64,000 nucleotides of DNA, from the NCBI GenBank assembly GCA_032622095.1, contig CP136065.1, positions 65,897,031-65,961,030 of the forward strand, read 5' to 3'. This document shows positions 18,254-62,960 of the stretch, in pieces. Each line of letters opens with the position of its first letter. The first letter of the stretch is position 1. The notes beneath the pieces were generated by a model. It ran no database searches. It worked only from the letters and a program-made list of their open reading frames with translations, and was not told where the DNA came from. The position numbers and the translations under genes are program-made. The DNA comes from Siphonodentalium dalli. Taxonomy: Eukaryota > Mollusca > Scaphopoda > Gadilida > Siphonodentaliidae.

Positions 18254-18653
18254 TTAACCCTTTACCCAACAGAAGGGCCCTGTGCCAATGCATTCTCTTA
18301 TATATGCGAGTCGACCATAGGTCGCCTCGCATATATAAGAGAATGCATTGGCTTAACACATTAAAAATTATAAAATTGTTAAAGAATGTAAGAAAAAATG
18401 GTAAAAAGTGTTAAAAAAAGATTTTTTTTAGGCCAATGCATTCTCTTATATATGCGAGGCGACCTATGGTCGACTCGCATATATAAGAGAATGCATTGGC
18501 ACAGGGCATAACTGTAACCATCACAATGTGGTCAATGAGCCGGTTCCAATGATATCCATATTTGTATGGTTTTATTGAGACAGACCCAAGATAATTTAGG
18601 CTGTTGCAGCTTTATTTGGCCGTTTTTGGCCGGTTTGTTGGGTAAAGGGTTAA
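18254..18653. mobile_element. TTAA (piggyBac-like) MITE, 'ACCCAACA' type, 400 bp
   Basis: TTAA at each end with inverted termini CCCTTTACCCAACA. Two near-perfect palindromes of about 67 bases (18280-18352, 18433-18499; ccaatgcattctcttatata...) flank an A/T-rich middle. 'gcataactgtaaccatcacaatg' follows the second. Exactly the same length as the copy at 49290-49689. No coding content. Confidence 0.92.
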
Positions 18654-18711
18654 GTAACCTCCAGGTGAACTGAGCGGTTGTTTGCCTCAAATTTGCAGGC
18701 CTGCACTACCT

Positions 18712-19345
18712 TACCTTATGCTCTTAATGAACACTGGCTGGGGCCACTACATGTCCATGTCTTCTGTACCGAATTCCTCCCCAACATGCCTTAGTCAAGC
18801 CAGCACCCGTCTCATCTGTGAACATATCATTTCAAGTTTAATTTAGTTTCACGTGTTGTCCAGTCCAGTATTCATCCAGTTGGTTTTTAAATTGATTTTG
18901 GGATTTCACATTGACTACATGTACTTCATTTGCCAGATGGTTCCGTAGATCCACAACTCTCTTACTAAAGGCATTTCTTCTTTTCTCTTTTCTTCCTCCT
19001 TCCAGATACATGTTGTTTATGTACATGTATAGTTTGAAATTGTTTCCTTTTGTTTTGGAAATAGTGCTCCATGTCTAAATATTGGGTGTACTTCCCGGTC
19101 ATAACTGTTGAACATCTTATAGCATTCAGTCATGTATGGTATCCTCTGTTCTGCAGTGTCAGGATTTTCAGTCTTTCAAGACGGTCTTCGTATTATAGGT
19201 TTTTCAATGTTGGAACAAGTTTGGTAACTCTCCATTTTCTATTGAGTTATGTGTTTCATCAGATATGGTTCCCAAGCTGGCTGTGAGTACTCCAATCATG
19301 GCCAAACCAGTCCTTTGTACAATTTTGAGAACATATAGCCTCGTT
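18712..19345 (-). pseudogene. Older copy of the same LINE family as at 9.25-9.9 kb
   Basis: Base-by-base similarity to 9247-9910 runs along the whole segment in the same orientation, including the short 3' terminal repeat (CTTACCTTATG at 18714-18723). The frame is broken many times. The longest readable piece encodes FSKRVVDLRNHLANEV and QFKNQLDEYWTGQ. It extends through the counterparts of LEKVQRRATKLVP and VRPRLEYSQPAW as scattered frames. It is a degenerate, 5'-truncated insertion in intron 1. Confidence 0.85.
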
Positions 19346-19425
19346 GAGATGGGTGAAGAATATTCTTATCACCACATTTCCAAGTATAATGACTATCATT
19401 CGGTCAAATTCTAGCTGGCTGATAT

Positions 19426-19444
19426 GGGGGGGGGGGGGGGGGGG
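19426..19444. repeat. G19 homopolymer
   Basis: Nineteen consecutive G followed by 'ctacaggccatcagggaag'; assembly length may be unreliable. Confidence 0.9.
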
Positions 19445-20160
19445 CTACAGGCCATCAGGGAAGTTTAGCCCCCAATCAGGGAGATCTCCAATGGTCAGCC
19501 CAGTAGCTACATGTATAACCCCCTCTGGCGGTTGATCGTAGACCATTTGTCAGACAAATCCTGGCGCCACCCCTGTTCACATACTAGTATACTGCAGGTG
19601 CCATTTGAATATTTAGAAATTTGTTAACAATTTATTTTTCCTTTGGAGAATTTTGGATACGGTAGCATTCCCTTATCATGACACCGGTACATGTTTTTTC
19701 ATTATCAATTGTTAGAAAAATTTAAAAATTGCTTCGGAAAGTGCAATGCCCTGAAGGCTGATTGACTGCTGGTTCAGAAATCACATACATTGTATTGTCT
19801 AGCATACTTGATACATTTAGTACCCCACAGTTATGCATGTTCACATGCAATCGCCGGACATAAAACAATTGACTGTACTGTTGGTATTGCATATCTGTGT
19901 GTCCCCTGCACTCAGTACAATCCATCATGACATTCAATTACATAAATCAGTCCTATTGAATTGGTCCCTACCACTGTGTGTGTTGACTCTAATGTTAAGC
20001 ATTGTTTAGATAAGTACTTTGCCTTACACTATTGAGGTATTTAGTCTATTTGTTTCAAACTCATATGTACCTAAGACTGTTCCTGGGTCTTACAGTCATG
20101 ATCAAAGTTACATGTATATATATATAATACATGTACATGTATGTACTCTTCACCTACATG

Positions 20161-20383
20161 TACAGTAATACCCGAAGTACTAGTATATGATCCTTTAACC
20201 ACAGTAGAATTTTGGGAAATATGTCACGATTTAGTTAGAAATATGGCTTGATGCCATTCATCAGAAAGCTCTCACCGAGAGCTTTCCGATGAATGGCAGC
20301 AAGCCATATTTCCGACTATATCTTGAAAAATTTCCCATAATTCTGCTGTGGTTTAGGGGTCGATTATTTGGGACATTACTGTA
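20161..20383. mobile_element. TA foldback MITE, full length
   Basis: Two arms of about 110 bases meet at 'gaaagctctcaccgagagctttc'. Ends are TACAGTAATACCC and GGACATTACTGTA. The left arm is more diverged (agtactagtatatgatc). Confidence 0.88.
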
Positions 20384-20754
20384 CTTTATTACACGCTTGT
20401 TCCTAGAAATACTATAATAATGGTGCTTACATGTACATGTATATACTAGTAGCGCATATCCCCAATGCCGAATGGGCCCTAAGTGCATCACATTTCTGTG
20501 TTATTGCTGTTCCATATTTACAAATCCGTATGGAACGTTGGTTCCATACACATCTCGTTGACATCAAATGACGTAAATAATGTTCGCCTCAACCATGAAA
20601 CCAGAACTATAAAATAAAAGCATCATCACACATGACAAAACAATTAAGCCTTGTACATGTACCGATATCTGCCTAAATAAACATTGTAAGCCTGTATTTT
20701 TTAATGCACAGATTCTAGGATGGGTGATTTGTAATAAACACAGAACGACACATA

Positions 20755-20878
20755 TGTTAATGGGTTTGTTGATATGCACTTGTGCCATCGTGGAAGTATA
20801 CTGGCAGAACTCGATGTGGCGCCTCTCGTTCAATCCTTCCGCGTTAAGACTTGTGCCGTATCAACAAACCTATTAACA
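20755..20878. repeat. Small inverted repeat, 20-bp arms
   Basis: 'tgttaatgggtttgttgata' versus the inverse of 20859-20878, with one mismatch. Confidence 0.5.
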
Positions 20879-21053
20879 CACTTGTGTCATTCTATGTATG
20901 TATGACACAGTCATTTAAGAGGTTTAACTAAGTGGCCAGCACTTGTGCTCTGATCATGTTATCAATGATATGTGTATTACATTTGTATATAGCCCTATTA
21001 ATTATGATTGGCTGAGTTGAGGCAAATGCCTACGCAAAAAGAAATTTTGTCGG

Positions 21054-21553
21054 CAGGGACCAGCCCAGAAGTTTCAAATAAAGAGAAGTCACTTCTCCCT
21101 AATTGATTATGTGGGAGAAGTGGGCTACTATCAGGGAGAAGTCATGAAGTTCAATTTCCACCCAAACATCACCCTCATACATGTATGATCCAATAAATAT
21201 ACCGGTATGCAACACAAGCGTGTAATTATAACACCATCATAGTGAGTAAGAACACCATTATAATCAGTAAATACACTTCAAATATTCTACTTTGAAATAC
21301 AGTAATACCCTAAGTAATCGACTCCTTAACCACAGCAGAATTATGGGTAATTTTTCAGGATTTAGTCGGAAATATAGCTTGTTGCCATTCATCGGAAAGC
21401 TCTCAGTGGGTTAAGGAGTCAATTACTTAGGGCATTACTGTATGCATACTGGAATATGAGTGAGAAATCACTTCTCCCTGGGACAAAAATAGGGAGAAGT
21501 GGCACAATTTAGAGAGAAGACATATCTCAAGTCGCCCTCTAGACTGGTCCCTG
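21054..21553. mobile_element. hAT-like MITE, 'CAGGGACCAG' family
   Basis: CAGGGACCAGCCCAGAAG to CTGGTCCCTG with 'gagaagtcacttctccct' inside both ends. Flanks TTTGTCGG and TTTGGCGG match 7/8. CAGGG-type ends and 8-bp duplications are hAT features. Interrupted by the foldback 21298-21442. Confidence 0.85.
21298..21442. mobile_element. TA foldback MITE nested in a hAT-like MITE
   Basis: TACAGTAATACCCTAAGTAA to GGGCATTACTGTA; the right arm is reduced to about 30 bases. It interrupts the element 21054-21553, whose relative at 33307-33648 lacks it. Confidence 0.85.
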
Positions 21554-22431: not shown

Positions 22432-22662
22432 TTAAGCCTTTCTTTACTAAATGCTCATTGATGGTTACTTCCCTTAGGAAATGTTCAATAAATGGCCACT
22501 TGTTATATGAACATTTCCCTCCAATAAATATTACTCCTTCATCATTTGTATTATCTCTTGTCTGCTTGTTTTTCCTGAACATCCCTCCAAATGAATAATA
22601 GACCATTCCAGTGTATGCTTTTATAACTGATGGGAGAATCCATTTAGTATAGTCTGAGTAAA
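22432..22662. mobile_element. TTAA MITE, 'CCCTTTCTATA' type, right end degraded
   Basis: Starts TTAAGCCTTTCTTTACTAAA, with the same inner order as 57662-57900 in reverse (ttcctaagggaa-like hairpin, 'atccctccaaatgaataatag'). The right end stops near 'tttagtatag' without TTAA. Confidence 0.6.
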
Positions 22663-22764
22663 TATGCATTACAGTAGGTCATTTATTATATCAGGTTGAA
22701 GAATTAGTGTTGTCCTGTTATCTTGTTGATGACATCAATACAATATATGTTATCAGGTACATAC

Positions 22765-22985
22765 TACAATAATGCCCTAAGTAATCGACTCCTTTTAAAA
22801 CCACAGCAGAATTATGGGTAACTTATCAGGATTTAGTCGGAAATATGGCTTGTTGCCATTTATCAGAAAACTCTCGGTGAGAGATTTCCGATGAATGGCA
22901 ACAAGCCATATTTCCGACTAAACCCTCAAAAGTTACCCATAATTCTGCTGTGGTTAAGGAGTCGATTATTTAGGGCATTATTGTA
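22765..22985. mobile_element. TA foldback MITE, full length
   Basis: Near-perfect arms of about 108 bases meet at 'aaaactctcggtgagagatttc'. Ends TACAATAATGCCC and GGGCATTATTGTA carry matching changes at the same position in both arms. Confidence 0.88.
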
Positions 22986-24009
22986 CATACTAGTATACCG
23001 GTAAGACCACACAAAGTTAATTGTTTGTTTCTCAGACACTGTCAAATTGTGCAGGCAGGCAAGTTTTTATTCCCAATTTTAAGACCAAAATTTCCAATTT
23101 TTAATAAACTAATTTCCAAAACATTTACTATTGAATTATTAAAAAACATTGTTGGATGTAAAAAATGATTTTTCATTTAATATTAAAAGTGATAATACTA
23201 TTTTATTTGAAGTCTGCTGTACAACCCAAGTACAAGTACATGTATATACAGTTTAGACAAGCCAAAAAGAAAACTTCAGAAAGTAGATTAAAAAGGAAAT
23301 ATCAAATACAAGTTGAAATGTGTCTAGCTTTAAATTGATTGTCAGTAGTCCATTGTCACTGAGCAGTAGAATGATTTACATCTTATATAGTATTAAAATA
23401 ACATTTATTTTCTGAATGTGGCCTTCTATGATAAACAATTTTCAATTTCTTTAGCATTCTGTCATTACTATAAGGTATGTGCAAACAACTAATTATTTTC
23501 CAAAGGCGACGGTGTTAACTATATTGAAGTCCTACTGGCCATGGGTTAAGCCTGTTTGAACTTCAAGTGGTCAATTTTCCCTCAGAACGTCATCCGGTAC
23601 ACCAGTCTGTCACAACAAACGTGCCCTTTTCGGTATTTTTTCAAATGATAATCTTGCATTTCCACAACTACCCCATTTACTGCACAAAAATCAGCAGCAT
23701 AAAAATACCCAGACCACTTCCTACCAGACTCTTCATGGTCACCTGAACAAAAATTATTGCCATATTTGCTTAGGCTATGATTTTCTGTTCCGGCTAAGGG
23801 AATTTTCCCTCGATGATAATCAATCAATCAGCAGCCAGAATTTTTCCCAGCACAATTTCAAGACAAATTCAAGAAGAGTAACTCTATATAATTACTTGCT
23901 TGTAATCTATTGATCCATAACTAGATCCTATTATTTATAGAGTTACATCTCTTGAATTGAGAATATGTTACATCACTGTGAACCGGTGTACACTGTAGTA
24001 GCTTTGGCT
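22986..24009. other. Intron 1, no feature seen
   Basis: AT-rich, few repeats; the 81-codon minus frame at 23582-23827 has no family signature. Confidence 0.45.
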
Positions 24010-24447
24010 CAAGTCTGGACATAGTGTGTCTGACATTTGCAGAGGGTGAATTTAGTGATGCTGTCCATCACAGCGGGCTAGTATTATCAAATTCACCCTC
24101 TGGGAACCTCATTCTGCTGAGGCCTCAACTACTATGTGAGACCTAACGATCAGATAGAAGTTCTCTTTTGAAGTTGGTGATGATGTTCACCCATTTATAG
24201 TCACCTCGATTATGCATTTTATCTTCTGCAATATTAGGGGATATAGAAACTGAACAGAAGGGAGAAAGTAAATAAAAACAATGTTAATTTGAGACTATAG
24301 ATACTTTCCCAGAAGATGAGGCCTAAGCAGAATGAGGTCCCCAGAGGGTGAATTTGGTGATGCTAGCCCATTGTGCTGGGTAGCATCACTGATTCACCCT
24401 CTGGGGACCTCATTCTGCAAATGTCAGATACACTTTATCCAGACTTG
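24010..24447. mobile_element. 'CAAGCCTTGAAATAG' family, full length
   Basis: CAAGTCTGGACATAGTGTGT to TTTATCCAGACTTG, 438 bp. Flanks CTTTGGCT and CTTAGGCT are a 7/8 match for an 8-bp duplication. Confidence 0.85.
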
Positions 24448-24461
24448 CTTAGGCTGTACTA

Positions 24462-24505
24462 TTAACCCTTTCAGTGCCAAGACCGATTTTTGTATCAACG
24501 GTTAA
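24462..24505. mobile_element. Left-end fragment of a 'GTGCC' type TTAA MITE
   Basis: TTAACCCTTTCAGTGCCAAG followed by 'accgatttttgtatcaacg', then broken off. It is the same end as at 42695. Confidence 0.7.
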
Positions 24506-24520
24506 ATTCTTTGTTCGCCC

Positions 24521-24628: not shown

Positions 24629-24629
24629 C

Positions 24630-25086
24630 TTAACCCTTTACCCAACAGAACGGCCCTGTGCCAATGCATTCTCTTATATATGCGAGTCGACCATAGGTCG
24701 CCTCGCATATATAAGAGAATGCATTGGCTTAACATATTAAAAATGATAAAATTGTCAAAGAATGTAGAAAAATATTATAAAAATTGTTAAAAAATGTAAG
24801 AAAAAATTATAAAATTGTTAAAGAATGTAAGAAAAAATGGTGTTAAAAAAAAGAATTTTTTTAGGCCAATGCATTCTCATATATATGCGAGGTGACCTAT
24901 GGTCGACTCGCATATATAAGAGAATGCATTGGCACAGGGCATAACTGTAACCATCACAATGTGGTCAATGAACCGATTCCAATGATATCCATATTTGTAT
25001 GGTGTTATTGAGACAGACGGAAGATATTTTAGGCTGTTGAAGCTTTATTTGGGCGTTTTTGGCCGTTTTGTTGGGTAAAGGGTTAA
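24630..25086. mobile_element. TTAA (piggyBac-like) MITE, 'ACCCAACA' type, 457 bp
   Basis: Same ends and both palindromes as 18254-18653. It is longer because the middle 'attataaaattgttaaagaatgtaag' block is repeated. It is inserted directly after the TA foldback half at 24521-24628. Confidence 0.92.
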
Positions 25087-25145: not shown

Positions 25146-25538
25146 TGAATACTCCGCTCTTCATAGAAGATGACAAAATATGCATATAATCAAAGTTTAA
25201 TTATGATGAACCACCGGCTGAACAATAAATATAAAATTTCATTTCTGATAAAAAATTTCAAGTAGGGGTCTTTTTTATTGGGTAGGTAGGGGGACTAGGG
25301 GCTATCGGCTGAGCCAAGGCTAAAAGAAATTTAATCAAATATTTTTTAACCTAACTACTATCAATATCCATAAGCAATTTTTTTTCTTAAGATTTTTTGC
25401 GGGTTAAATATCTTTTATGGGGATGGGCAGAGGTCTGGTTACCGGAAACATCACTATTTTTTTCTTAGGCCTTAGACATTGCTTTCATTGTTGCTTTTAT
25501 GTTGGCAGAAGAGTGAAACACTGCACTCTGTTTACATG

Positions 25539-25736
25539 TAGAATAATGCCAAAGTACATGTATATGACCCTTTAACCACAGTAGAACTATGGGAAATTTT
25601 TCAGGATTTAGTCGGAAAGATGGCTTGTTGCCATTCATCAGATGAATGGCAACAAGCCATATTTCCGACTAAATCATGGAAAATTTCCCATAATTCTGCT
25701 GTGGTTTATGGGTTGATTAATTAGGACATTACTGTA
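25539..25736. mobile_element. TA foldback MITE
   Basis: Both arms present, meeting at 'ttcatcagatgaatgg'; ends tagaataatgcc and ggacattactgta. Confidence 0.82.
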
Positions 25737-26039
25737 TATTTATGGATAGACCACACTATGAATATCTACTCTGGCTGCACCTGTAGAGATCATGTTCCAC
25801 CAGTTCAAAACCTGAACTTAAACATCAAAATAGTAACACACGTAATATATTTCACAGCAGGTGAATATCTCAGCTTGAGGTTGCATGATTTAGGCATCTT
25901 CTGTGAGCCAACATCGCAATAAACATGACAGTCTATTTCAATAAAATTGGGCAAGTTAAATCACCTTTTATTGAATATAAATGATCATGACCATTTAAAA
26001 TATACATTGGAAGGGTCTAATATTCACCTGGATAAATGC

Positions 26040-26948: not shown

Positions 26949-27402
26949 TGTGACCCGCCATATCAAATCCAGTCGTAAGATTTTTTTACCCTGTGCCGAT
27001 GCATTCTCTTATATATGCGAGTCGACCATAGGTCGCCTCGCATATATAAGAGAATGCATTGGCCTAACAATTTTTTACAATTTTAATAATTTTTTCTTGT
27101 ATTCTTTAACAATTTTATAATTTCACCCATACAGAGCCCCAGACAAACATGAGCAGACAACACTCTTCTATATGCTTCTATATATGTGTGGGGCTCCCTG
27201 CAGGGTAATGGATGTTTTTTATTTTATGTCCTAAAAATTGTAAGAAACATTTATTTTAAAAAAATGATAAAAAATTGTTAGGCCAATGCATTCTCTTATA
27301 TATGCGAGGCGACTTATGGTCGACTCGCATATATAAGAGAATGCATTGGCACAGGGTAAAAAAAATCCCGACTTAGGACTGGATTTGATATGGCGGGTCA
27401 CA
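26949..27402. mobile_element. MITE with TGTGACCCGCC ends and the shared palindrome
   Basis: Long inverted ends TGTGACCCGCCATATCAAAT extend for about 45 bases. Then come the same 'ccctgtgccgatgcattctc' palindromes as in the TTAA families, one next to each end. A different hairpin (gagccccagac...gtgtggggctc) sits in the middle. Flanks give no TTAA and no clear duplication, so the superfamily is undetermined. Confidence 0.85.
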
Positions 27403-28788: not shown

Positions 28789-28886
28789 TTAACCCTTTGA
28801 GTGCCAGGGGCCGATCTCATCGGCCCTAAACCTACAAAATAAGTCTTTTAAAGAATATAAGAATAAATTATTAAAATTGTAAAAAA

Positions 28887-28921
<35 letters not shown>

Positions 28922-29010
28922 AAGCCAATGCATTCTCATATATAAGAGAATGCATTGGCACAGGGTATATGGGTTGATACAAAAATCGGACCTGGCACTC
29001 AAAGGGTTAA
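28789..29010. mobile_element. TTAA (piggyBac-like) MITE, 'GTGCC' type
   Basis: TTAA duplications flank inverted ends CCCTTTGAGTGCCAGG. The inner palindrome is shortened (ccaatgcattctc...gagaatgcattgg without its centre), and an A28 run lies at 28891-28918. TTAA plus CCC(T)-starting termini are established piggyBac features. No transposase is present. Confidence 0.88.
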
Positions 29011-30794: not shown

Positions 30795-31017
30795 TTAACC
30801 CTTTGAGTGCCAGGGGCCCTGAACCTACAAAATAAGTCTGTTAAAGAATATAAGAATAAATTATTAAAATTGTAAAAAAAAAAAAAAATAATTGTTAGGC
30901 CAATGCATTCTCTTATATATGCGAGGCGACCTATGGTCGACTCGCATATATAAGAGAATTCATTGGCACAGGGTATATGGGTTGATACAAAAATCGACCT
31001 GGCACTCAAAGGGTTAA
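30795..31017. mobile_element. TTAA (piggyBac-like) MITE, 'GTGCC' type
   Basis: TTAA at both ends, inverted ends CCCTTTGAGTGCCAGG, and an internal A-rich block. One full ccaatgcattctcttatata palindrome has the cgacctatggtcg centre. It is the best-preserved copy of this type in the window. Confidence 0.9.
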
Positions 31018-31839: not shown

Positions 31840-32316
31840 GGCAATAGCTTGCAAAATTAAATAATCAGAAATCAAACTCACCAATAATTCAGTTTAATAT
31901 ACAATGTAAATATGGTATATCACTGTGTCTTCAACATCTGAAAATTACATTCTGGCACAATGATCTCTTTAAATTCAACGAACTTAGCATTTCATCATAA
32001 TTTACAGCACATCCTGATAGACTATGTTTATTAGTATTTAAATTTTATTACACACAATAAAATTGAAGGGCAAGAGATAAAGGATCTAACCATTTTTAAC
32101 CAGTCAAAAGATACCAACTCGAATATCATATTAAATACAGGATAAAGGATATATCACACACATTGTTTTTGTCCTATTAAACGTCACTGTTGATATACAT
32201 GTACCAGGATGTCAACTGATAATCTTTTATATGCTTTTGATATATTAATGGGTCAACAAACATAAGTCCTGTTTTCCTAGAAATAAGATATCTGGTTATT
32301 TTTAGACTGTAGGGAG

Positions 32317-32522
32317 TACAGTAATGTCCTAAATAATCGACTCCTTAACCACAACAGAATTATGGGTAATTTTTCAGGATTTAGTCGGAAATATGGCTTG
32401 TTGCCATTCATCGGAAAGCTCTCACCGATGAATTGCAACAAGCCATATTTCCGACCAAATCCTGAAAAATTACCCATAATTCTGCTGTGGTTAAGGAGTT
32501 GATTATTTTGGGCATTACTGTA
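32317..32522. mobile_element. TA foldback MITE, full length
   Basis: TACAGTAATGTCC to GGGCATTACTGTA with arms of about 100 bases and a short centre 'gaaagctctcaccgatgaa'. Confidence 0.88.
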
Positions 32523-32657
32523 TGGGGTATTAAGGTTTTCAGTGAAGTGACATGTTAAAACTAAAAATACCGGATACTAAAAAAAGCTTTTGAAGGAGTA
32601 TGTAAAATGCATTAGAATACCGGTAAATGCATGAGCATGATGGTAGTGAATTATCTA

Positions 32658-42694: not shown

Positions 42695-45600
42695 TTAACC
42701 CTTTCAGTGCCAGGTCCGATTTTTGTATCAACCCATATACCCTGCATATAGGTTACACTGGTGTAAATGTTTCCCATAGGCCTCAGTGCAAACGTTTTAG
42801 CGTATAGTGTTGGCAATATAAATGTTGGGTCCAAAATTTTCTTTAAATCTGAAAAATTGACATTTTGGGAAACTTTTTACACAAAAAAATCATGTCTGTC
42901 TAGCAGGGAATTCGCCTTTAAATCTTATGTTTTCGTAACTAGTGTCAGAACCGCATAAAAAAATACAGTCATATTTTAGACCACACCAAAATATTCAAAC
43001 TTCACTACAAAGGGTTAATTCCTGTGCCAACGGTTATTTTACCTATGGGAAATCATAGGGAAGAGGTGTGATGATTTTTTTATGTAAAAAGCACACAAGG
43101 CTATTGACCAATCAGGGCCCAGTGTCTATTTTATTCTCTCCTATATATTCCTCCCGCATCCGCTAGATGTCACTCGGAACCTTATTTACACCAGTGTAAC
43201 CTAAAGCGATAGCCCGCTTTTTCGCGGAATAATTGTAACTCCCTACATTTCTTCAGAATTGCCCATCAATGGAAAAAATGTGTTCAAAAACAATATCACC
43301 CCTATGGTTCTTTATTTATCACACACAATTTAACCCCACCCCCTTTAACAAATTATTCATCAAAAAGGCACAATTTTCCACCACCAGTCATGTTCAGGCC
43401 CCATTTTCACTCAGTTTTAGGGGTCTGGTGTTGCAAACTTGGATCAGCTATGGAAGACTGTACAATATTCTTTCCATGAGAGAACTTCTGGTGATGTGAG
43501 GTCATTGAGTCCAGATCTGATCAGCTGAGCATCAAGCGCATGACTTTATCAGCACATTGAAGAATAAAATATGACATTTTCAGGTCTGCAAGGGTGATCC
43601 AAGATAACTGGATGTGGGTGTATATTGAATTAGTTGAATAAAGATATGCTCTCTTTGAATTGCTGAAGCATTTTCTTAAATGTGTCCAAGTTTTAGTGCT
43701 ATTAACCTTCAAATGACCATACCCACCAGTGGAAATGACACACTTTTATGATATATATCTGTATATCACTGGCTATCAAATCCAAAATACTTGTTAGATT
43801 AGGTTCTTATAACAATTGATATATGTGTCGTTGACATGCTCATGTTATGGGTCATTTGCATTATCATGTGACTATTACCACCTTGAAATTTTTTGAAAAT
43901 ACCTTGAAAAATTGGCATTTTTTATGAAAAATCTTACTATTTTTTTGGCTGATGTAAGTGAAAGAAGACATCAGCAGCAAGAATAGCCACACCAAGCATG
44001 AGATATTCATTGGACTGAAAGACCAGGCTCTGTAAAATGCATTAAAATGCTTTAAAGTGACTCCCAGGAATCAAAAATGATAAAAAGCTATTTTTTCCCT
44101 TTAGGTTACACTGGTGTAAATGTTTCCCATAGGCCTCAGTGCTAACGTTTTAGCGTATAGTGTTGGCAATATAAATGTTGGGTCCAAAATTTTCTTTAAA
44201 TCTGAAAAATTGACATTTTGGGAAACTTTTTACACAAAAAAATCATGTCTGTCTAGCAGGGAATTCGCCTTTAAATCTTATGTTTTCGTAACTAGTGTCA
44301 GAACCGCATAAAAAAATACAGTCATATTTTAGACCACACCAAAATATTCAAACTTCACTACAAAGGGTTAATTCCTGTGCCAACGGTTATTTTACCTATG
44401 GGAAATCATAGGGAAGAGGTGTGATGATTTTTTTATGTAAAAAGCACACAAGGCTATTGACCAATCAGGGCCCAGTGTCTATTTTATTCTCTCCTATATA
44501 TTCCTCCCGCATCCGCTAGATGTCACTCGGAACCTTATTTACACCAGTGTAACCTAAAGCGATAGCCCGCTTTTTCGCGGAATAATTGTAACTCCCTACA
44601 TTTCTTCAGAATTGCCCATCAATGGAAAAAATGTGTTCAAAAACAATATCACCCCTATGGTTCTTTATTTATCACACACAATTTAACCCCACCCCCTTTA
44701 ACAAATTATTCATCAAAAAGGCACAATTTTCCACCACCAGTCATGTTCAGGCCCCATTTTCACTCAGTTTTAGGGGTCTGGTGTTGCAAACTTGGATCAG
44801 CTATGGAAGACTGTACAATATTCTTTCCATGAGAGAACTTCTGGTGATGTGAGGTCATTGAGTCCAGATCTGATCAGCTGAGCATCAAGCGCATGACTTT
44901 ATCAGCACATTGAAGAATAAAATATGACATTTTCAGGTCTGCAAGGGTGATCCAAGATAACTGGATGTGGGTGTATATTGAATTAGTTGAATAAAGATAT
45001 GCTCTCTTTGAATTGCTGAAGCATTTTCTTAAATGTGTCCAAGTTTTAGTGCTATTAACCTTCAAATGACCATACCCACCAGTGGAAATGACACACTTTT
45101 ATGATATATATCTGTATATCACTGGCTATAAAATCCAAAATACTTGTTAGATTAGGTTCTTATAACAATTGATATATGTGTCGTTGACATGCTCATGTTA
45201 TGGGTCATTTGCATTATCATGTGACTATTACCACCTGGAAATTTTTTGAAAATACCTTGAAAAATTGGCATTTTTTATGAAAAATCTTACTATTTGTTTG
45301 GCTGATGTAAGTGAAAGAAGACATCAGCAGCAAGAATAGCCACACCAAGCATGAGATATTCATTGGACTGAAAGACCAGGCTCTGTAAAATGCATTAAAA
45401 TGCTTTAAAGTGACTCCCAGGAATCAAAAATGATAAAAAGCTATTTTTTCCCTTTAGGTTACACTGGTGTAAATGTTTCCCATAGGCCTCAGTGCTAACG
45501 TTTTAGCGTATAGTGTTGGCAATATAAATGTTGGGTCCAAAATTTTCTTTAAATCTGAAAAATTGACATTTTGGGAAACTTTTTACACAAAAAAATCATG

Positions 45601-46077
45601 TCTGTCTAGCAGGGAATTCGCCTTTAAATCTTATGTTTTCGTAACTAGTGTCAGAACCGCATAAAAAAATACAGTCATATTTTAGACCACACCAAAATAT
45701 TCAAACTTCACTACAAAGGGTTAATTCCTGTGCCAACGGTTATTTTACCTATGGGAAATCATAGGGAAGAGGTGTGATGATTTTTTTATGTAAAAAGCAC
45801 ACAAGGCTATTGACCAATCAGGGCCCAGTGTCTATTTTATTCTCTCCTATATATTCCTCCCGCATCCGCTAGATGTCACTCGGAACCTTATTTACACCAG
45901 TGTAACCTATACAATGCATTCTCTTATATATGCGAGTCGCCTCGCATATATATTAAAGAGAATGCATTGGCCTAACAATTTTTCATCATTTGTTATTATT
46001 GTTTACAATTTTTTACAATCTTAATAATTTTTTCTTATATTCTTTAACAGACTTATTTTGTAGGTTTAGTGCCAGGG
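42695..46077 (-). mobile_element. TTAA (piggyBac-like) MITE, 'GTGCC' type, split by the E-S array
   Basis: The left end is TTAACCCTTTCAGTGCCAGG with 'ccgatttttgtatcaaccca' following. The right part resumes at 45908 with a shortened ccaatgcattctctt palindrome, the A/T-rich middle and 'tctttaacagacttattttg', and stops at GTGCCAGG (about 46077) without its terminal CCCTTTGA/TTAA. It is the same family as 28789-29010 and 30795-31017, in reverse orientation, with the 3.2-kb array inserted into its palindrome. Confidence 0.75.
42751..45907. repeat. Alternating MITE-spacer array E-S-E-S-E, period 1,353 bp
   Basis: Three copies of a 451-bp element E (42751-43201, 44104-44554, 45457-45907) alternate with two copies of a 902-bp spacer S (43202-44103, 44555-45456). 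E has terminal inverted repeats GGTTACACTGGTGTAAAT, and every E end abuts a TA. I found four substitutions between copies: 42790 a versus t at 44143; 43777 c versus a at 45130; 43884 t versus g at 45237; 43943 t versus g at 45296. The period is exact. Open frames of 63 and 76 codons in E and S are identical only because the copies are recent. The outer flanks are both TATA. Confidence 0.93.
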
Positions 46078-46797
46078 AATCTTATGTTTTTCATGGGCAT
46101 CAAAATTATTACAATGAATACTTGGTGATAGTTTTGAGTTGTAACATGTTTATCCAGTTTGCTTTTAAATTCGCTATAGCATGCTAAATTTTATTAGGGC
46201 CGATTTTACAGACCGTAAATTAGGGCTGATGATTCAATTAACCCAGGCCCCTGGAACTGCCTGGGTTAATATCACTTTACAAAACTAAAAAGAGCCTGAC
46301 AGTTTTTTTGTGAGTTATTTGTCAGGAATACGGTCACTGTTCAATATTCACTGCCCGTACATCATTTATATAAATGGCGTTATTTTCTGCCGATTTGAAT
46401 ATTAAAATAATAAAATTAAATAATTTGGGCAAGATTATTTGCTACTTCGTTCTAGCGACCACAGCAGAGTGTTTCACATCACTTTAAATTAATCATATTT
46501 TCCTGTGTTATAAAAAGAAACAGATACTGCACTAAAATGTCAATAAAGTTCAATGCGAGACAGTTTAGAAAACTGATAAACTTGTTTTGTTACGAGGACT
46601 GGAAAATTAATAAAATAAAATCAAACAAAATTGTACTGTGATATTTGTATAAACAATATAAAAAAACATGGAATTAAAGAAGAGATTTCTTTCTATTGGC
46701 CAATAATGGAAATTAAAATTTTCTCAACGTTATACCACCATTTCTGTCAGGCGCGCTTTTGAAAATGTCTGACAAGTTACTGTAATCCTTTCTATAC
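46078..46797. other. Intron 1, little seen
   Basis: A palindromic pair 'ttaacccaggcccctgg...gcctgggttaa' at 46238-46267 echoes 'gcctgggttaa' at 42688-42698, on the other side of the split MITE. Confidence 0.4.
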
Positions 46798-47060
46798 TTA
46801 ACACTTTTATGATGGGAGCTGCGCTGGTGCAGCATTAAAGATCCTGTGCCAGTGCATTATCTTAATGAGAGTCTCACATAGAGAGCCTCACATATATAAG
46901 AGAATGAACTGGCTTACAAGGTTAAGAGAATGAACTGGCTTACAAGGTCAAGATAAATATTGTTGGGGCCAATGTATTATCTTATATATGCGAGGCTCCC
47001 TATGGGAGACTCGCATATATAAGAGAATGCATTGGCACAGGGTTTTCACAAAATTTCAAC
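46798..47060. mobile_element. TTAA MITE, 'GATGGGAGCTGC' type, right end decayed
   Basis: Begins TTAACACTTTTATGATGGGA. It has two palindromes with the ctccctatgggag centre and a partly repeated 'agagaatgaactggcttaca' block. The right terminus has lost its TTAA. It appears inserted in the 'CCCTTTCTATA' MITE that resumes to the right and ends at TTAA 47310-47313. Confidence 0.7.
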
Positions 47061-49289: not shown

Positions 49290-49689
49290 TTAACCCTTTA
49301 CCCAACAAACCGGCCAAAACCGGCCAAATAAAGCTTCAACAGCCTAAAATATCTTTGGTCTGTCTCAATAGAACCATACAAATATGGATATCATTGGAAC
49401 CGGTTCATTGACCACATTGTGATGGTTACAGTTATGCCCTGTGCCAATGCATTCTCTTATATATGCGAGTCGAACATAGGTTGCCTCGCATATATAAGAG
49501 AATGCATTGGCCTAAAACAAATCTTTTTTTAACACTTTTTACCATTTTTTCTTACATTCTTTAACAATTTTATAATTTTTAATGTGTTAAGCCAATGCAT
49601 TTTCTTATATATGCGAGGCGACCTATGGTCGACTCGCATATATAAGAGAATGCATTGGCACAGGGCCCTTCTGTTGGGTAAAGGGTTAA
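49290..49689. mobile_element. TTAA (piggyBac-like) MITE, 'ACCCAACA' type, 400 bp, reverse
   Basis: TTAA duplications and CCCTTTACCCAACA termini, with both palindromes. It is the reverse complement of 18254-18653 with few differences, so both are recent. Confidence 0.92.
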
Positions 49690-50105: not shown

Positions 50106-50377
50106 TTACACCTTTCCATGACTGGAGCTTCCTGAAATTTTGTGAAAACTCTGTGCCGATGCATTCTATTATTATAATATGAAAGTCTCACGTTGGGAGC
50201 CTCACACATAAGATACATGTAATACATTGGCTTAACAATATTTACCTTGACCTGGTAAGCCAGTGTATTCTCTTATATATGCAAGGCTCCCTTTGGGAGA
50301 GTCACATATATAATAGGATGCACTGGCACAGGATATTTAATGCTGCACTAGCGCAGCTTCTGTCATGAAAGGATTAA
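50106..50377. mobile_element. TTAA MITE, 'GATGGGAGCTGC' type, reverse, aged
   Basis: The left end TTACACCTTTCCATGACTGG is degenerate at TTAA. The right end is GCGCAGCTTCTGTCATGAAA followed by GGATTAA (50374-50377). Two decayed palindromes with a ccc(t)ttggga centre lie inside. Confidence 0.75.
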
Positions 50378-50725: not shown

Positions 50726-50914
50726 TTAACCTTTCCATCACTGGAGCTTCTTGAAATTTTACAAAAACCCTTTGCCAATGCATTCTCTTATATAAATGCG
50801 AGTCACCCTATATTATAAGGGAATGCATTGGCCTAGAAATATTTACCTTGACCTTATAAGCCAGTGCATTCTCTTATATACATGTATGCAAGACTCTATG
50901 GGAGACTCACATAT
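50726..50914. mobile_element. TTAA MITE, 'GATGGGAGCTGC' type, truncated at the right
   Basis: Begins TTAACCTTTCCATCACTGGA and contains one collapsed and one partial palindrome. It is cut where the TA foldback fragment at 50917 starts. Confidence 0.7.
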
Positions 50915-50916
50915 AT

Positions 50917-54890: not shown

Positions 54891-55284
54891 GTTACTAACT
54901 TATCGGTTTTATTCACCGGAGTAAGTCCATAATATTTCTTCAATTTAAATTTAATACTGACTATGGGAAGTATAACTACTGTTTTGTAAACAAGGAAACT
55001 GATACCTCTTAAGCACTCCAATGATGCAAAATATTCACATTTCTTCACTGTCATTTGCAAGGATTAATATTGTATGAGGGATCAGATTTCTATCTCGGGG
55101 CGACATTCCTTTTGTTATATGTTGGTATGTCTCAGTGGGAATGAGAGCTTTAATAGAGCACATTAAAAATGCGGAATATCAACAAACAAAATTTATGTGA
55201 AACCCCTTTTAAAAGTTTGTTTCAAATATTATTATCTAAAATAATGCATGTGAAACATCATGTGTTCAAGCCTATGGGTGACTT

Positions 55285-55447
55285 GCATAACAAAATACAT
55301 TGGCACAAGGTTTTCGCAAAATTTCTGAATCTCTAGAATATTTACCTTGACCTTGTAATCCAGTGCATTCTCTTATATATGCGAGGCTCCCTATGGTAGA
55401 CTCGCATACATGTATATAAGAGAATGTATTGGCACAGGGTTTTCCCC
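55285..55447. mobile_element. TTAA MITE, 'GATGGGAGCTGC' type, internal fragment
   Basis: Holds 'cattggcacaaggttttcgc', the 'atatttaccttgaccttgta' middle and one full palindrome with centre gaggctccctatggtagac. Both termini are missing. Confidence 0.65.
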
Positions 55448-56936: not shown

Positions 56937-57182
56937 TTAACCATGGGAGATGCACTGTTGCAGCATTAAAGATCCTGTGTCAGTGTATTCTCTTATATAT
57001 GCAAGTCTCCCATAGGGAGTCTCGCATATATAAGAGAATGCACTGGCTTACACAGTCAAAGTAAATATTGTTAAGCCAATGCATTCTCTTATATATGCGA
57101 GGCTCCCTATGGGAGACTCGCATATTTTAGAGAATGATTTGGCACAGGGTTTTCGTAAAAGCTCCAGTCATGGAAGGGTTAA
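56937..57182. mobile_element. TTAA MITE, 'GATGGGAGCTGC' type, with paralogous empty site
   Basis: TTAA at 56937-56940 and 57179-57182, with two palindromes having ctccc/gggag centres. The related array unit at 60011-60050 reads 'tatgatattTTAAcgtattt' where this unit has MITE and TTAA twice, so the insertion and its duplication are directly visible. Confidence 0.88.
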
Positions 57183-57661
57183 CATTTTTAAACAATAAAT
57201 TAAATGAGATTTGTAGGTATTTTCAACACGTATTTGATCAATTCTGATAAAAATATAAATAGGTTTAAAAGAGACAAATACATGTAGTAATTTGGAATGT
57301 CTGTCCTTTTTCTAGCACAGAAAAATAACTAGAAAATTTGATGCGGTTTTTTACTAGTATTGTACCTGTTTCAATATCTGTATATTATAATGCCTATATA
57401 TTATAACTAATTTCTTCCATCAAATTGACGATGAAGCAGATGTTTGGTTATATAAGGGCATGTGTACTGTACACTACTTAAATTCTTATAGGACTACTTA
57501 ACACCTGTTTGAGCGATCAGAGTTAATGTACTTTTAGGTGCTAAGTATAAGTATTCAAGTAGTGTCATATGACTTGAGAGTTAATGTACTATTATTATAA
57601 TGTGCTAAGTACTGTATATCTATTCCAGTAGTATCACATGAGCTTGGTCCTTGAAAGCATT

Positions 57662-57900
57662 TTAACCCTTTCTATAGTAAATGGATTTTCCCACTCAGTT
57701 ATAAAAGTATGCATTGTAATGGGCTATTGTTCATTTGGAGGGGTTTTCAGGACAGATAAGAAGACGACACATAATACAAGTACAGAAGGAGGGAAATGTT
57801 CAGATAATAAGTTCACCAAATATGGTCATTTGTTGAATTTATTACCTGAACGTTTCCTAAGGGAAACTCATCAATCAGTATTTTGTATAGAAAGTATTAA
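57662..57900. mobile_element. TTAA MITE, 'CCCTTTCTATA' type, complete
   Basis: TTAA at 57662-57665 and 57897-57900; termini CCCTTTCTATAGTAAATGG and the inverse TTTTGTATAGAAAG. Internal inverted pieces 'gaaatgttcagataataagttc' and 'gaatttattacctgaacgtttc' form a hairpin. It lies in unit 2 of the degenerate tandem array. Confidence 0.8.
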
Positions 57901-58098
57901 AATGTTGTATAATTACCAAAATGTTTCTTTATTCATCATTTATGCCAATACATCTTGCTGAACAATTGCCCTTTTGTGGACATTGGAAGATATTTCCACT
58001 TGCCTTTAGTTGCTCCCGGCGCCTTTGTTCTGTCCTTGGCAATAAAACTGGAAAATGTGATGTAGCTTTGTACATGTACATTATTATCATTGTCTATA

Positions 58099-58262
58099 TA
58101 TAAGGATTAACTGTCATGTGGGCTGTTTTTATGGAGATGTAACCGTGAGGTAAGTGGTCATAACTTGTGTAAAACCCGAAGGGTTTTACATACAAGTTAT
58201 GACCACTTACCTCACAGTTACATCTCCATAAAAACAGTCCACATGACAGTTAATCCTTATAT
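58099..58262. repeat. Near-perfect hairpin, about 75-bp arms
   Basis: 'tataaggattaactgtcatg' to 'cataacttgtgtaaaacccg' folds onto 'gggttttacatacaagttat...taatccttata' with a loop of only a few bases. It lies between array units. A foldback MITE is likely; a structured RNA cannot be excluded. Confidence 0.85.
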
Positions 58263-58608
58263 TTATATACATTTAGCGAAAAAGCCACTTTTGTAAATGT
58301 ATTTAAATCGAAAAGTGTATCGTGACAAAACCATCCCAAAATATCCCATAGCACCCTTGGCAAAAGTTAACAGGAACAATTGAAACCCGCTGATTTATTA
58401 AGTCAATCCTGCGCGAATCCAAATGCGCCCAAAACATTACGCGTTCATCTTTCCAAACCCAAATGACGTATCGATGTTGTTATGAGCTTGGTTTTATGAG
58501 CTGTTGCGCATTCACCGAGAAATAATTGCAACTAGCCACATGGGCGCCGACCAATAGGAATGCTGGATTTAGTGATGACAACACTTAGTATGTAAATATA
58601 TATATATA

Positions 58609-59759
58609 ACTGCAGAGATAATGGTATACATGTACATGTATTATCATTGTCTATATATATATATAACTGCAGAGATAATGGTATACATGTACCTGTAGTT
58701 GTGGAGATAATGGTATACATGTACCTGTAGCTGTGGAGATAATGGTATACATGTACCTGTAGCTGTGGAGATAATGGTATATATGTACATGTACCTGTAG
58801 CTGTGGAGATAATGGTATACATGTACATGTACCTGTAGCTGTGGAGATAATGGTATACATGTACATGTACCTGTAGCTGTGGAGATAATGGTATACATGT
58901 AGCTGTGGAGATAATGGTATACATGTAGCTGTGGAGATAATGGTATACATGTACCTGTAGCTGTGGAGATAATGGTATACCTGTACCTGTAGCTGTGGAG
59001 ATAATTGTATACATGTACCTGTAGCTGTGGAGATAATGGTATACATGTAGCTGTGGAGATAATGGTATACATGTACCTGTAGCTGTGGAGATAATGGTAT
59101 ACATGTAGCTGTGGAGATAATGGTATACATGTAGCTGTGGAGATAATGGTATACATGTACATGTAGCTGTGGAGATAATGGTATACATGTACACGTAGCT
59201 GTAGCTGTGGAGATAATGGTTTACATGTAGCTGTGGAGATAATGGTATACATGTAGCTGTGGAGATAATGGTATACATGTAGCTGTAGCTGTGGAGATAA
59301 TGGTATACATGTAGCTGTGGAGATAATGGTATACATGTAGCTGTGGAGATAATGGTATACATGTAGCTGTGGAGATAATGGTATACATGTAGCTGTAGCT
59401 GTGGAGATAATGGTATACATGTAGCTGTGGAGATAATGGTATACATGTACCTGTAGCTGTGGAGATAATGGTATACATGTAGCTGTAGCTGTGGAGATAA
59501 TGGTATACATGTACCTGTAGCTGTGGAGATAATGGTATACATGTAGCTGTACCTGTAGCTGTGGAGATAATGGTATACATGTACATGTACCTGTAGCTGT
59601 GGAGATAATGGTATACATGTACATGTACCTGTAGCTGTGGAGATAATGGTATACATGTAGCTGTGGAGATAATGGTATACATGTAGCTGTGGAGATAATG
59701 GTATACATGTACCTGTAGCTGTGGAGATAATGGTATACATGTACATGTACCTGTAGCTG
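58609..59759. repeat. Minisatellite, about 36 copies of a 26/32/38-bp unit
   Basis: Core 'ctgtggagataatggtatac' followed by 'atgtag' and zero, one or two extra hexamers (gtacct, gtagct, acatgt). All unit lengths leave remainder 2 on division by three, so each frame cycles through all three phases. No phase contains a minus-strand stop, which creates long frames (up to 413 codons) in all three minus frames. They are not genes. Seed words ('acatgtacctgtagctg') are found in the array units at 56706 and 59745. Confidence 0.95.
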
Positions 59760-60910
59760 ATTTCGTTTATCAAATTGAAGACGGCTCATTGAACATAATT
59801 TTATACATCAAAAGCAGATGTTTGCCTAAATAAGGGCATGTGCACTATCTTAATCAGATTTGTATTGGTCTGCTTAACAACATATGTTGGAGTGTATGCA
59901 TTGTCATCTGCCAGTTTGCATAAAACCGTCTTTATATATAATCTATTTTATATGAAATGATTCAAATTTAATTTATGCAGATCGCTCGAGGTTCAAAAGT
60001 GTCCCAGTAATATGATATTTTAACGTATTTTGAAACAATAATAATTAAATGAGATTTGTAGGTATTTTCAACACTAATTTTGTGCTCTTAATATCTGATA
60101 AATTCTGATAAAATTATACAAAAACGTAACATAATGTGTTTTGAACAGGTTTAAAAGAGACAAATACATGTAGCAATATAGACCGTCTGTCATTTTTCTA
60201 ACACAGAAAAATAACTGGAAAATGTGATGCAGCTTTGTATATGTAATATCATTGAAGACGGCTCATTGAACATAATTTACATCAAAAGCAGATGTTCACC
60301 TATATAAGGGCATGTGCACTACACTAATCAAATTTTTATTGGTCTACTTAACATCTGTTGGAGTGTTGAGAGTTAATGTACTATTATAATGTGCATTGTC
60401 ATCTGCCAGATTGCATAAACCATATGACTAGCAGTATGACTGGAGGTTAACATGTACACTTAGTGTTTATAAACCAGCTGACAGCTGGCTAATAATATGT
60501 TGGGACTTATTCGTTGCATCATATGTTTATCAAGGTTAAAACAAAGGTGCTGGTCAGATAAATGTTCTATCATGGCAGATAGGCTGGGAATATCCAGCTA
60601 CATGTATATACGTACCGGGGAAAACCCTTGGAGACAAAAATTCATGCATCGATGTGGAATATTTCTGTGCAAACGCTTGGGAATGAAGGTATGGTGGGTC
60701 TATGAAAAAGATAATTTCTATAGTTTTAAATTGCAAAATTTCAGGAAGCTCAAGTCATGGAAGGGTTAAACATTTCAATTAGATTCTAATCTATAAAATA
60801 ACATGTTTGCAATGAGAAGTGGTTCATAAAAGATGCTATTTTTAATTGATATTGAATTTTCTATGCATTTATTTCAGATTATTTTGACTCGGCTACGAGT
60901 TATCTTGTAC

Positions 60911-61609
60911 TACACTATATTCCAGGGTGCCACTACTAGTTATCTCGTACTTTATATGGGGTCTAGATATTCTGCTGTAGAAATTTAAGAAATTGAGTTC
61001 CCCACGTAATAATAATTTCAACCATCTTAGGAAGCTCAAATATATGTGTGATGTGAGTGGTGCCACTGCATCGGTGTAATAAAGGAACCTAGTTAGTTCG
61101 TGTATTTGAATAGTAGACATCAATTTTGAAGTACATGTAGCACGATCACACATGTAAGATTGTATATGTCAAAATTTAGGTACAAGATTACTCGTAGTCA
61201 GCACCCAGCACCCAGCACCACCCATCTAAACCTGGAATGTGGGATACAATATTTCCTGGTTGTGATGAGTTATGTTGTTGCTAGAACTAGTGCAGGGTAC
61301 TCCAAAAGGTCAAATGAGCACATGTTTATTATTTACAATATCGAAAATGATCTTCTGATGAAGTACTCATGAGAATAACGTGGTAAAGTGTGGATACGAG
61401 ATAACTCGTAGTCGGCACCCAGCCAAAATACCATGAGGTGGTGCTGCTCTGTGCTGACTACGAGTTATCTCGTAGAGCGTTTATGCCATGTTTTTATGTG
61501 ATCCCAAGCTGATACATGCCCAGTTTTGGGGTTTGAGGTTGGTTATATGGTGCTATCTACCTATTTAATACATAATATAAAGTTGGCACCCTGGAATGTT
61601 ACACTATAG
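60911..61609. mobile_element. 700-bp inverted-repeat element near the end of intron 1
   Basis: 'tacactatattccagggtgc' and inverse 'ggcaccctggaatgttacac'. Inside, the palindromic word TACGAGTTATCTCGTA and variants occur at about 60894, 60935, 61181, 61392 and 61455. A hairpin (gtcggcaccc...gtgctgac) is also present. Just right, 'ggcactcaacgtgttaa' resembles a TTAA MITE end. Confidence 0.55.
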
Positions 61610-61940
61610 GGTTCCGGCACTCAACGTGTTAAACCAGAAGGATTATTTTATAAAATATTTTATAACAAAATGAGAATCTATGTTATTAATACTAGTAGGT
61701 CTAGTTTATGTCTTATTTGGATTTTTTAAAATTTTCAAAGGCACAAAACAGAAAATGAGTTTGTATGTTGTTGTTGTAATTGGATGTCCAGAACCCTGAA
61801 TACATCTTTTAAATTTGTTTGTCCACTGAAAAAAAACATTGTTTCGGGACTATAGAAATGCCAGAGTCGATCCATTTTTCCATCTGTCCAAAACATTTGT
61901 TGTCCGATAATAACTTGAATAATATTTTTAATAATTTCAG

Positions 61941-62238
61941 AAATGGAGAAAGAGGTTTTTCGTTCTCCACAAACCAGCAGGGAGCTTACATGATGAGTAC
62001 AAACTGAGCTACTATTCTGATAAGGACTGCAATCGTCACAAAGGAGAAATCGACCTGGTGCAATGTGAACAAATTATCGAGTCGCTCAACTCAGACCATT
62101 ATCCATATGTGTTGGCGATAAAAACATTGTTCAAAAAAAAGGAAAGGACATATTTTCTCGCAACAGAATCTGAACATGAGATGTCTCTGTGGGTACAGAA
62201 TTTGTGCACAGTCTGTGGGTTAAAACAAGAAGATAATC
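61941..62238 (+). CDS. GAB: Gab/DOS-family docking protein, exon 2 (core of PH domain)
   Basis: This exon has 298 nt (99 codons plus 1 base), open throughout, between acceptor ATAATTTCAG and donor GTATGT. It starts KWRKRFFVL, the basic second PH strand that contacts phosphoinositide. Next come SYYSDKDCNRHKGEIDL and CEQI, matching the family pattern (YY..D...K..G.IDL..CEQ) known from DOS and Gab1. It then has KERTYFLATESEHEM and SLWVQNLC; the Trp is the near-invariant residue of the PH C-terminal helix. With exon 1 the domain spans about residues 8-118, normal for a Gab PH domain. The exon ends in phase 1, and the next exon (63779) supplies two bases to complete a Pro codon. Codon usage is ordinary, with no frameshift or stop. 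Confidence 0.92.
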
Positions 62239-62302
62239 GTATGTTGTGATTTTACCATATTATCATTTTATTGCGCACTTTTTGGCTTATATTTTAGTGA
62301 GA

Positions 62303-62519
62303 TACCATAATGCCCTAAATAATCGACTCCTTAACCACAGGAGAATTATGGGTAACTTTTCAGGATTTAGTCAGAAATATGGCTTGTTGCCATTCATCGG
62401 AAAGCTCTCACTGAGAGCTTTCCGATGAATGGCAACAAGCCATATTTCCGACTAAATCCTGAAAAGTTACCCATAATTCTGCTGTGGTTAAGGAGTCGAT
62501 TATTTAGGTCATTACTGTA
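62303..62519. mobile_element. TA foldback MITE, full length, in intron 2
   Basis: Arms of about 108 bases meet at 'gaaagctctcactgagagctttc' and are near identical. Ends TACCATAATGCCC and GGTCATTACTGTA. Confidence 0.88.
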
Positions 62520-62538
62520 CATGTTTTGGTACAGGCTC

Positions 62539-62960
62539 TAGGGACCAGCCGAGATGTTTCAAATTGGGAGAACTCACTTCTCTCTCTTTAACACTTTCAT
62601 GATGGGAGCTGCGTTGGTGCAGCATTAAAGACAATAGGGCACCTCGCATATATAAGAGCATGCACTTGCTTACATGATCAGTGTAAATATTGTTAGGCCA
62701 ATGCATTCTCTTATATATGTGAGGTGCCCTATGGGCGACACGCATACATAAGAGAATGCATTGGCACAGGGTTTTTGCAAAAAATGAGAAAGCTCCAGTC
62801 ATCAAAAGGTTAAATGTTGTTATAAGGGAGAAGTAACAGCGGCTGAAGTTTAAACCCAACATCACCCGTCTATGATCCAATAAGTATCATGCAACACAAG
62901 ACCCCATTTATAAAACCATTAGAGTGAGTAAAAACAGCATTATAAATAGTAAAATATACT
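62539..62960. mobile_element. 'CAGGGACCAG' family, left part, interrupted by a TTAA MITE
   Basis: TAGGGACCAGCCGAGATG, 'gagaactcacttctctctc', then the MITE 62588-62813. The rest ('aagggagaagtaac... taaatagtaaaatatac') follows; the right terminus is missing. Confidence 0.8.
62588..62813. mobile_element. TTAA MITE, 'GATGGGAGCTGC' type, nested in intron 2
   Basis: TTAA at 62588-62591 and 62810-62813; left end CACTTTCATGATGGGAGC, right end AGCTCCAGTCATCAAAAGG. One full palindrome has centre gaggtgccctatgggcgac. It interrupts the hAT-like MITE 62539-62960. Confidence 0.85.

Follow-up and report, generated by a model that had tools for sequence, protein, structure and literature searches.

A palindromic core joined at one border to different sets of ends in short transposon-like elements of the scaphopod Siphonodentalium dalli

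Within 64,000 nucleotides of the scaphopod mollusc Siphonodentalium dalli (contig CP136065.1, positions 65,897,031 to 65,961,030; hereafter the window, with a GC content of 36.6% and read as animal DNA) lie short transposon-like elements that share a 67-bp palindrome, CCAATGCATTCTCTTATATATGCGAGTCGACCATAGGTCGCCTCGCATATATAAGAGAATGCATTGG, and that are assigned to four types (A to D) by their ends. In types A, B, and D, unrelated arms meet a single, almost unchanged core at an identical base, and the arms of type C are attached to an older version of that core. A 20-mer from one half of the palindrome has 38 matches in the window (≤3 mismatches) against a mean of 0.01 expected, the largest count in 100 shuffles being one, and the matches sort into 23 palindrome modules, of which some are incomplete, distributed over 13 loci (six modules at three loci for type A, three at three for B, 12 at six for C, and two at one for D). 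The recurrence of the palindrome described in an initial annotation of this DNA is therefore real, each of the loci it listed was found, and a sixth type C locus (55271–55439) was absent from that list. The palindrome folds into a near-perfect predicted hairpin (−33.2 kcal/mol as DNA, z −14.2), and occurs as inverted pairs in types A, C, and D and singly in type B.

The type A elements have the tips CCCTTTACCCAACA and TTAA on both sides, and comprise A1 (18258–18649, forward strand, 392 bp; palindromes 18285–18351 and 18433–18499), A2 (24634–25082, forward strand, 449 bp, with extra repeats in the middle; palindromes 24661–24727 and 24866–24932), and A3 (49294–49685, reverse strand, 392 bp, inverted relative to A1; palindromes 49444–49510 and 49592–49658). 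Type B has the tips CCCTTTGAGTGCCAGG, with TTAA on both sides of B1 (28793–29006, forward strand; single palindrome 28925–28958) and B2 (30799–31013, forward strand; single palindrome 30900–30966). The copy at 28789 had been called shortened, which holds for its palindrome, cut to 34 bp, and not for the element, which is of full length (214 bp against 215 bp for the copy at 30795). The same description does not apply to B3 (42699–46082, reverse strand), annotated at 42695, where the right arm (42699–42739) is followed by an insertion of ~3.2 kb, after which a palindrome (45911–45970) and the type B middle resume (45911–46060, the latter end approximate); the far end of B3 is degenerate and its exact position uncertain. 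A small extra hairpin, GGGCCGATCTCATCGGCCC, is present in the left arm of B1 (28789–28830), and the B2 form is shorter there.

Type C is the most numerous, with C1 (46802–47064, end approximate, forward strand; tip CACTTTTATGATGGGAGC, right end lost; palindromes 46849–46912 and 46969–47035), C2 (50110–50373, reverse strand; flanks TTAC and TTAA; palindromes 50156–50232, degenerate, and 50260–50326), C3 (50730–50916, reverse strand; a right-type arm and a palindrome at 50775–50831, the second palindrome being broken at 50916 and joined there to half of another palindromic repeat), C5 (56933–57178, forward strand; left flank ATGA, degenerate, and right flank TTAA; palindromes 56980–57046 and 57076–57142), and C6 (62592–62809, forward strand, 218 bp; TTAA on both sides; half of the left palindrome lost, 62630–62668, right palindrome 62698–62764). 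The remaining type C locus, C4 (55271–55439, no strand assigned), has no recognised tips and consists of a half palindrome (55271–55304) and a mosaic-looking palindrome (55360–55432). Type D is a single element, D1 (26949–27402, forward strand, 454 bp), with the tips TGTGACCCGCC and palindromes at 26996–27062 and 27283–27349; it is not flanked by TTAA, and reading the tips of this one copy as GTGACC gives AAAT at either side. Two arms occur without a core. A type B right arm (24462–24505, forward strand) lies beside half of another repeat and diverges from B1–B3 by 5.9–9.1% over 33–34 aligned columns, and a type C right arm (60727–60769, reverse strand) has TTAA and, by eye, loses similarity ~4 bp before the core border.

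TTAA is present on both sides at six of the 13 loci (A1–A3, B1, B2, and C6) and on one side, with the other end lost, in C1, C3, and B3. Types A, B, and C combine the TTAA duplication of piggyBac-type miniature inverted-repeat transposable elements (MITEs) with tips that look piggyBac-like; neither was found in D, the type that had been annotated as lacking TTAA flanks. The tip motif CC(C/T)T (PMC2872659) is matched by A, B, and the right ends of C3, C5, and C6, and is absent from D; the C tips that depart from it are the right tip of C2 (ACCTTT) and the left tips CACTTT (C1 and C6), TCCTTT (C2), and CATTTT (C5). By eye, CCCTTT is common to the A and B tips, and the C tips start similarly. No piggyBac domain was found in the 10 open reading frames scanned or in six frames of 57301–60770, which gave only sub-threshold matches to Csd3_N. 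The D tip TGTGA fits the TGTNR tip of Ginger1, defined together with a CCGG or CCGT target duplication in the relevant passages of PMC2836005, and Ginger was rejected as the superfamily of D, the flanks being AAA and AAT. The module may have crossed superfamilies, as judged from the single copy of D.

Read inwards, the core would consist of CCCTGTG, the 67-bp palindrome, an AT-rich middle, the inverted palindrome, and CACAGGG. The initial annotation had placed a 'ccctgtgcc' junction and an 'aaaattgttaa..aatgtaag' middle in nearly all elements, with the module in a constant position. For the junction, CCCTGTG or a near variant does lie on the outer side of the modules in all four types, except in B3R, which is cut by the insertion, and in C3L and C6L, where the outer side is lost (L and R mark left and right modules). 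The middle is as described in A, B, and D (seven of 13 loci), while C has a different middle of ~27 bp. The constant position does not hold, as the distance from tip to palindrome is 27 and 150 bp in A against 45–48 bp in nine modules of the other types (B1R, B2R, C1L, C2L, C2R, C3R, C5L, C6R, and D1L), with 53 bp in D1R and 36 bp in C5R. The spacing of 45–48 bp, noticed post hoc, is the best pointer to a putative functional spacing.

Similarity between elements starts at one base, CCCTGTGCC, in seven arm contexts (one copy each), where the number of agreeing pairs per column jumps from 3–11 of 21 to 15–21 of 21 at CCCTGTG, and just one of the 18 columns from the border inwards is lower (11 of 21); the C left modules and C2R have one substitution within the CCC at the border. 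Inside the core, the AT-rich middle, read from the right module in A1 and from the left module in D1, is homologous between these two elements, B2, and B3, and for the pairs A1R–D1L, A1R–B2R, A1R–B3R, B2R–D1L, and B3R–D1L none of 300 dinucleotide shuffles scored as well (alignment scores 47–80 against shuffled means of 25–29). Pairs with the right side of D1 were mixed (0, 9, and 66 of 300 shuffles as good), and the short middle of C5 had no significant match to the others in 12 comparisons (13–295 of 300 shuffles as good). No consistent target duplication was found at the edges of the core, and none at all in A or C; the core of D lies between TTTA and TAAA, where a TA duplication is possible. 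Insertion of the core at TTAA was rejected, as its edges lack TTAA.

The upkeep of the palindrome was analysed in 14 complete modules, 12 of them distinct, in which three base pairs are changed on both sides (4–64, 29–39, and 30–38). Cells changed on both sides number 11 against 4.0 after shuffling, and none of 500 shuffles had as many, though the number of pairs so changed (three against 2.4) was reached by 217 of 500. Because the sequences are related, these paired changes are suggestive only, and they fit hairpin self-correction and selection alike. An off-centre T.C mismatch has kept its orientation in 16 of the 17 modules whose centre is intact (the exception, C5L, having T.T), which speaks to some extent against self-correction acting freely. 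The core may possibly serve as a site for a putative transposase or host factor, that is, for a subterminal binding protein.

Local alignments of the arms, each extending from its tip as far as the core border, were scored against those of 300 shuffles. Across types, none of the 36 comparisons had fewer than 5% of shuffles scoring as well, the lowest values being 5.7% (right arm of B with left arm of D) and 9.7% (left arms of A and B), and as the termini could not be aligned across types there is no cross-type tree of termini. Within types, none of 300 shuffles scored as well as the left and right arms of A, B, or D with each other. The lengths of unrelated arms are alike in several cases (40 bp for the right arm of B, the left arm of C, and the left arm of D, and 38–39 bp for the right arm of C, 29 bp in C5), the rest being 20 and 143 bp in A and 46 bp for the right arm of D. 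Over the 67-bp palindrome, mean divergence is 2.5% within A (15 pairs) and 2.8% between A, B, and D (20 pairs), with B2R as the sole B module because the centres of B1R and B3R are deleted. Identity over 83-bp core stretches is 95–98% among A, B, and D, compared to 89–92% with the right module of C6 and 81–84% with the left module of C5. Differences from A1L number 6–13 of 67 positions in the five C modules examined, of which C6R and C1R (6 of 67 from A1L) come closest to A, B, and D, so that the core may have been handed on from a form like these. The two halves of the core are inverted repeats with zero, two, and three differences in 67 positions in A1–A3, respectively, and two in D1. In a wider comparison that takes in bases outside the palindrome, A modules differ by 3.1% on the same side, by 8.2% on opposite sides, and by 8.1% between left and right of one element, compared to 8.1–8.4% for A–B, 7.9% for A–D, and 3.4% for B–D; bases inside and outside the palindrome behave differently here, also between the two sides of A.

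With cores equally close within and between types, arms that cannot be aligned, and a common middle, exchange of termini is supported for A, B, and D, in which core and ends have probably recombined. Divergence of one family does not explain these three types. Under vertical descent with unequal constraint, an old family would have kept its core by selection as a putative binding site (for a dimeric transposase domain or a host factor) while its arms diverged beyond recognition. The similar arm lengths of B, C, and the left side of D fit such a history, as do the nine modules with the 45–48 bp spacing, the pairing kept across subfamilies (subject to the two shuffling results above), and the fact that paired C-terminal domains bind the subterminal palindromes of piggyBac and piggyBat, according to the sections of PMC11707139 available. 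Yet in their palindromes and AT-rich middle, A, B, and D resemble each other as closely as members of a single family do, which leaves too little time for saturation of the arms, and the middle, assumed to be unconstrained, is shared as well, so that this stretch is also recent. Given further that D lacks TTAA and piggyBac tips, and that self-correction of the palindrome could yield paired changes without selection, we consider vertical descent improbable.

A core tree of 17 modules and 86 columns resolves little, with two of its 14 inner branches starred. It groups the C left modules with C4R (98/94) and the A left modules with each other (95/96), and in its best form A, B, and D stand opposite C across one branch (68/86, not starred), an arrangement that vertical descent would also produce. 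A clade of all left modules, a group picked after seeing the distances, was rejected (approximately unbiased test, p 3.8e-6), and in A and D the left modules therefore lie closer to right-type sequence; a clade of C right modules was likewise rejected (p 0.004, C4R counted as right), and a clade of A was not (p 0.44). The mosaic appearance of C4R lies in its diagnostic sites, which are right-type on the outer side (two of two) and left-type on the inner side (three of three), two of the five being inside the palindrome; four central sites that separate C from A, B, and D rather than left from right were left out. This one case, with few sites, looks like a switch within or beside the palindrome. 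Gene conversion that homogenised the cores of long-separate families, with arms diverging normally, would yield both such mosaics and equal core divergence within and between types, but it must have stopped at the same base in every type and left C, in the same window and at the distances from A1L given above, without homogenisation; it is as doubtful an account as vertical descent.

The exact border also bears on the idea of the core as a small element mobile in its own right, tipped by CCCTGTGCC...GGCACAGGG, which would have entered existing A, C, D, and B elements as a unit (B later losing half) before the composites were amplified. The core is bounded exactly at its two ends in every type, its halves are inverted repeats, one precise event per type would be enough even with arms as unequal as those of A (20 and 143 bp), and a TA duplication is possible in D. 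Against this, no target duplication is seen in A or C and none of the 13 loci is a clean solitary core, C4 being tipless but retaining right-arm sequence. Insertion of this kind seems unlikely, if less so than the two preceding accounts, and, as it is a possible route of exchange, its odds overlap with those of recombination between core and ends.

On the reading that core and ends were exchanged, the elements would be nonautonomous DNA transposons built of two exchangeable parts, namely ends recognised by a transposase (three piggyBac-like TTAA sets and, in D, one set of another kind) and the core. We infer that the core swapped ends recently and as a block, and that every new combination may have been amplified by the transposase matching its ends. 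Less firmly, the exchange might have taken place while breaks were repaired or through strand switching in the course of copying, events that hairpin-forming sequence would favour, and C4, with a right-type outer and left-type inner part to its palindrome, looks like the result of such a switch; alternatively, the core may have been inserted as an element, or conversion may have been at work. The swap of termini around a common core proposed in the initial annotation is in this way borne out for A, B, and D. Also in its favour are the two arms that occur without a core (24462 and 60727), the rejected clade of left modules, by which those of A and D are not sisters of those of C, and the precedent of the coral CMITEs described below. 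Several observations weigh against it: the core tree is poorly resolved and at its best separates A, B, and D from C; an identical border in every type needs a precise event that left no consistent target duplication; the similar length of unrelated arms is not predicted by random exchange; the window showed no element that has both arms but lacks the core; and D is represented by one copy, with all of the evidence confined to the window. A further possibility, put forward tentatively and with rather less than even confidence, is that the core, bounded by its palindromes, has persisted as a passenger beyond several successive transposase partners and repeatedly gained ends, including those of a non-piggyBac superfamily, so that the core lineage, and not that of the ends, would be the unit of descent.

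Several other repeats and one coding region occur in the window. The insertion that splits B3 (42749–45909) contains three direct repeats of ~455 bp (starting at 42749, 44102, and 45455), each with inverted ends TAGGTTACACTGGTGTAA, set apart by internal parts of ~0.9 kb in the order (repeat-internal)x2-repeat; its first and second units, counted from 42744 (five bases outside), have seven differences in 1353 positions, four of them within the first 47. This resembles, in layout only, the KolobokP multimers described in parts of PMC9587614, and KolobokP was rejected as a source of the palindrome, the available text of that paper containing nothing comparable. Another family of long palindromic repeats is found at 20130–20400, 22735–23000, 25510–25755, 32280–32540, and 62270–62535 with partial copies, and in its copies at 24380 and 36200 other sequence, which includes a TTAA-CCCTTT tip, stands in place of the left half; the half repeat to which C3 is joined at 50916 is also of this family. 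TTAA with the facing tips CACTTTGAACCC and CCCTTTGAACCC at 34990 and 36337, ~1.35 kb apart, is possibly a further TTAA element. A dispersed repeat, GCAGAATGAGGTCCCCAGAGGGTGAATTT on one strand and its inverted form, occurs at ~12 places in 1426–63708, and a long array at 58591–59789, with units of ~26–38 bp rich in TACATGTA, has several open frames and was read as non-gene. A PH domain is encoded at 61935–62246 (Pfam E 4.1e-14), in a product that may resemble GAB-type docking proteins.

Searches beyond the window gave few leads. A 19-mer of the palindrome had no match in the viral contig and genome contig collections searched, and neither the B tip nor a 27-mer of another repeat had any in the viral contigs. 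The string CCTGTGCCAATGCATTC occurs in seven viral contigs, matches that were read as chance because none has the palindrome after it and six of the seven are near-identical around the match. The first 25 kb of the window had no match to phage records, and no part of the window matched any of 4227 Rfam families at gathering thresholds. Six tip and core strings looked for in the text of 5.39 million papers matched four of them, all off-topic as judged by title and abstract start.

A keyword search of the literature (titles and abstract starts, outside Repbase entries and subscription papers) gave the coral CMITEs (Wang et al. 2010) as the sole close case among the matches listed. According to the portions of PMC2872659 available, CMITEs have differing piggyBac-like tips, TTAA flanks, and an internal region more conserved than the ends, and one of their families has the tips of a full piggyBac-like transposon with a mostly unrelated inside; different ends around a conserved internal region are also what was found here. 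CMITEs are ~100 bp with an internal region of 75 bp, compared to 214–454 bp for the present elements in which both ends can be recognised (A1–A3, B1, B2, C2, C5, C6, and D1), and those portions describe no non-TTAA family, while the present set includes D. A published CMITE 60-mer is not clearly similar to the A1 core (11 of 300 shuffles as good on one strand and 129 on the other), nor does it form a pronounced hairpin (equalled in folding by 31 of 100 shuffles). In piggyBac and piggyBat, too, subterminal palindromes occur close to the tips, at positions that differ between the left and right ends of piggyBac, but in the account given in parts of PMC11707139 these are ~12–19 bp and bound by their own transposase, compared to 67 bp and common to unrelated ends here. 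The V domain of short interspersed elements in MER6 is a further case of a conserved module moved from one element class into an unrelated MITE; in the accessible sections of PMC6887750 the carrier derives from Mariner and palindromes are not mentioned, whereas the core described here is palindromic. MITE families are classed by their ends, and if cores and ends recombine, the ends would carry no trace of descent and families may switch transposase. The coral CMITEs are a precedent without clear sequence relation, the origin of their core having been left open in 2010, and what is new relative to them is that the palindromes are paired and that one set of ends, represented by a single copy, lacks TTAA, making this second, palindromic case with its sharp border a testable system.

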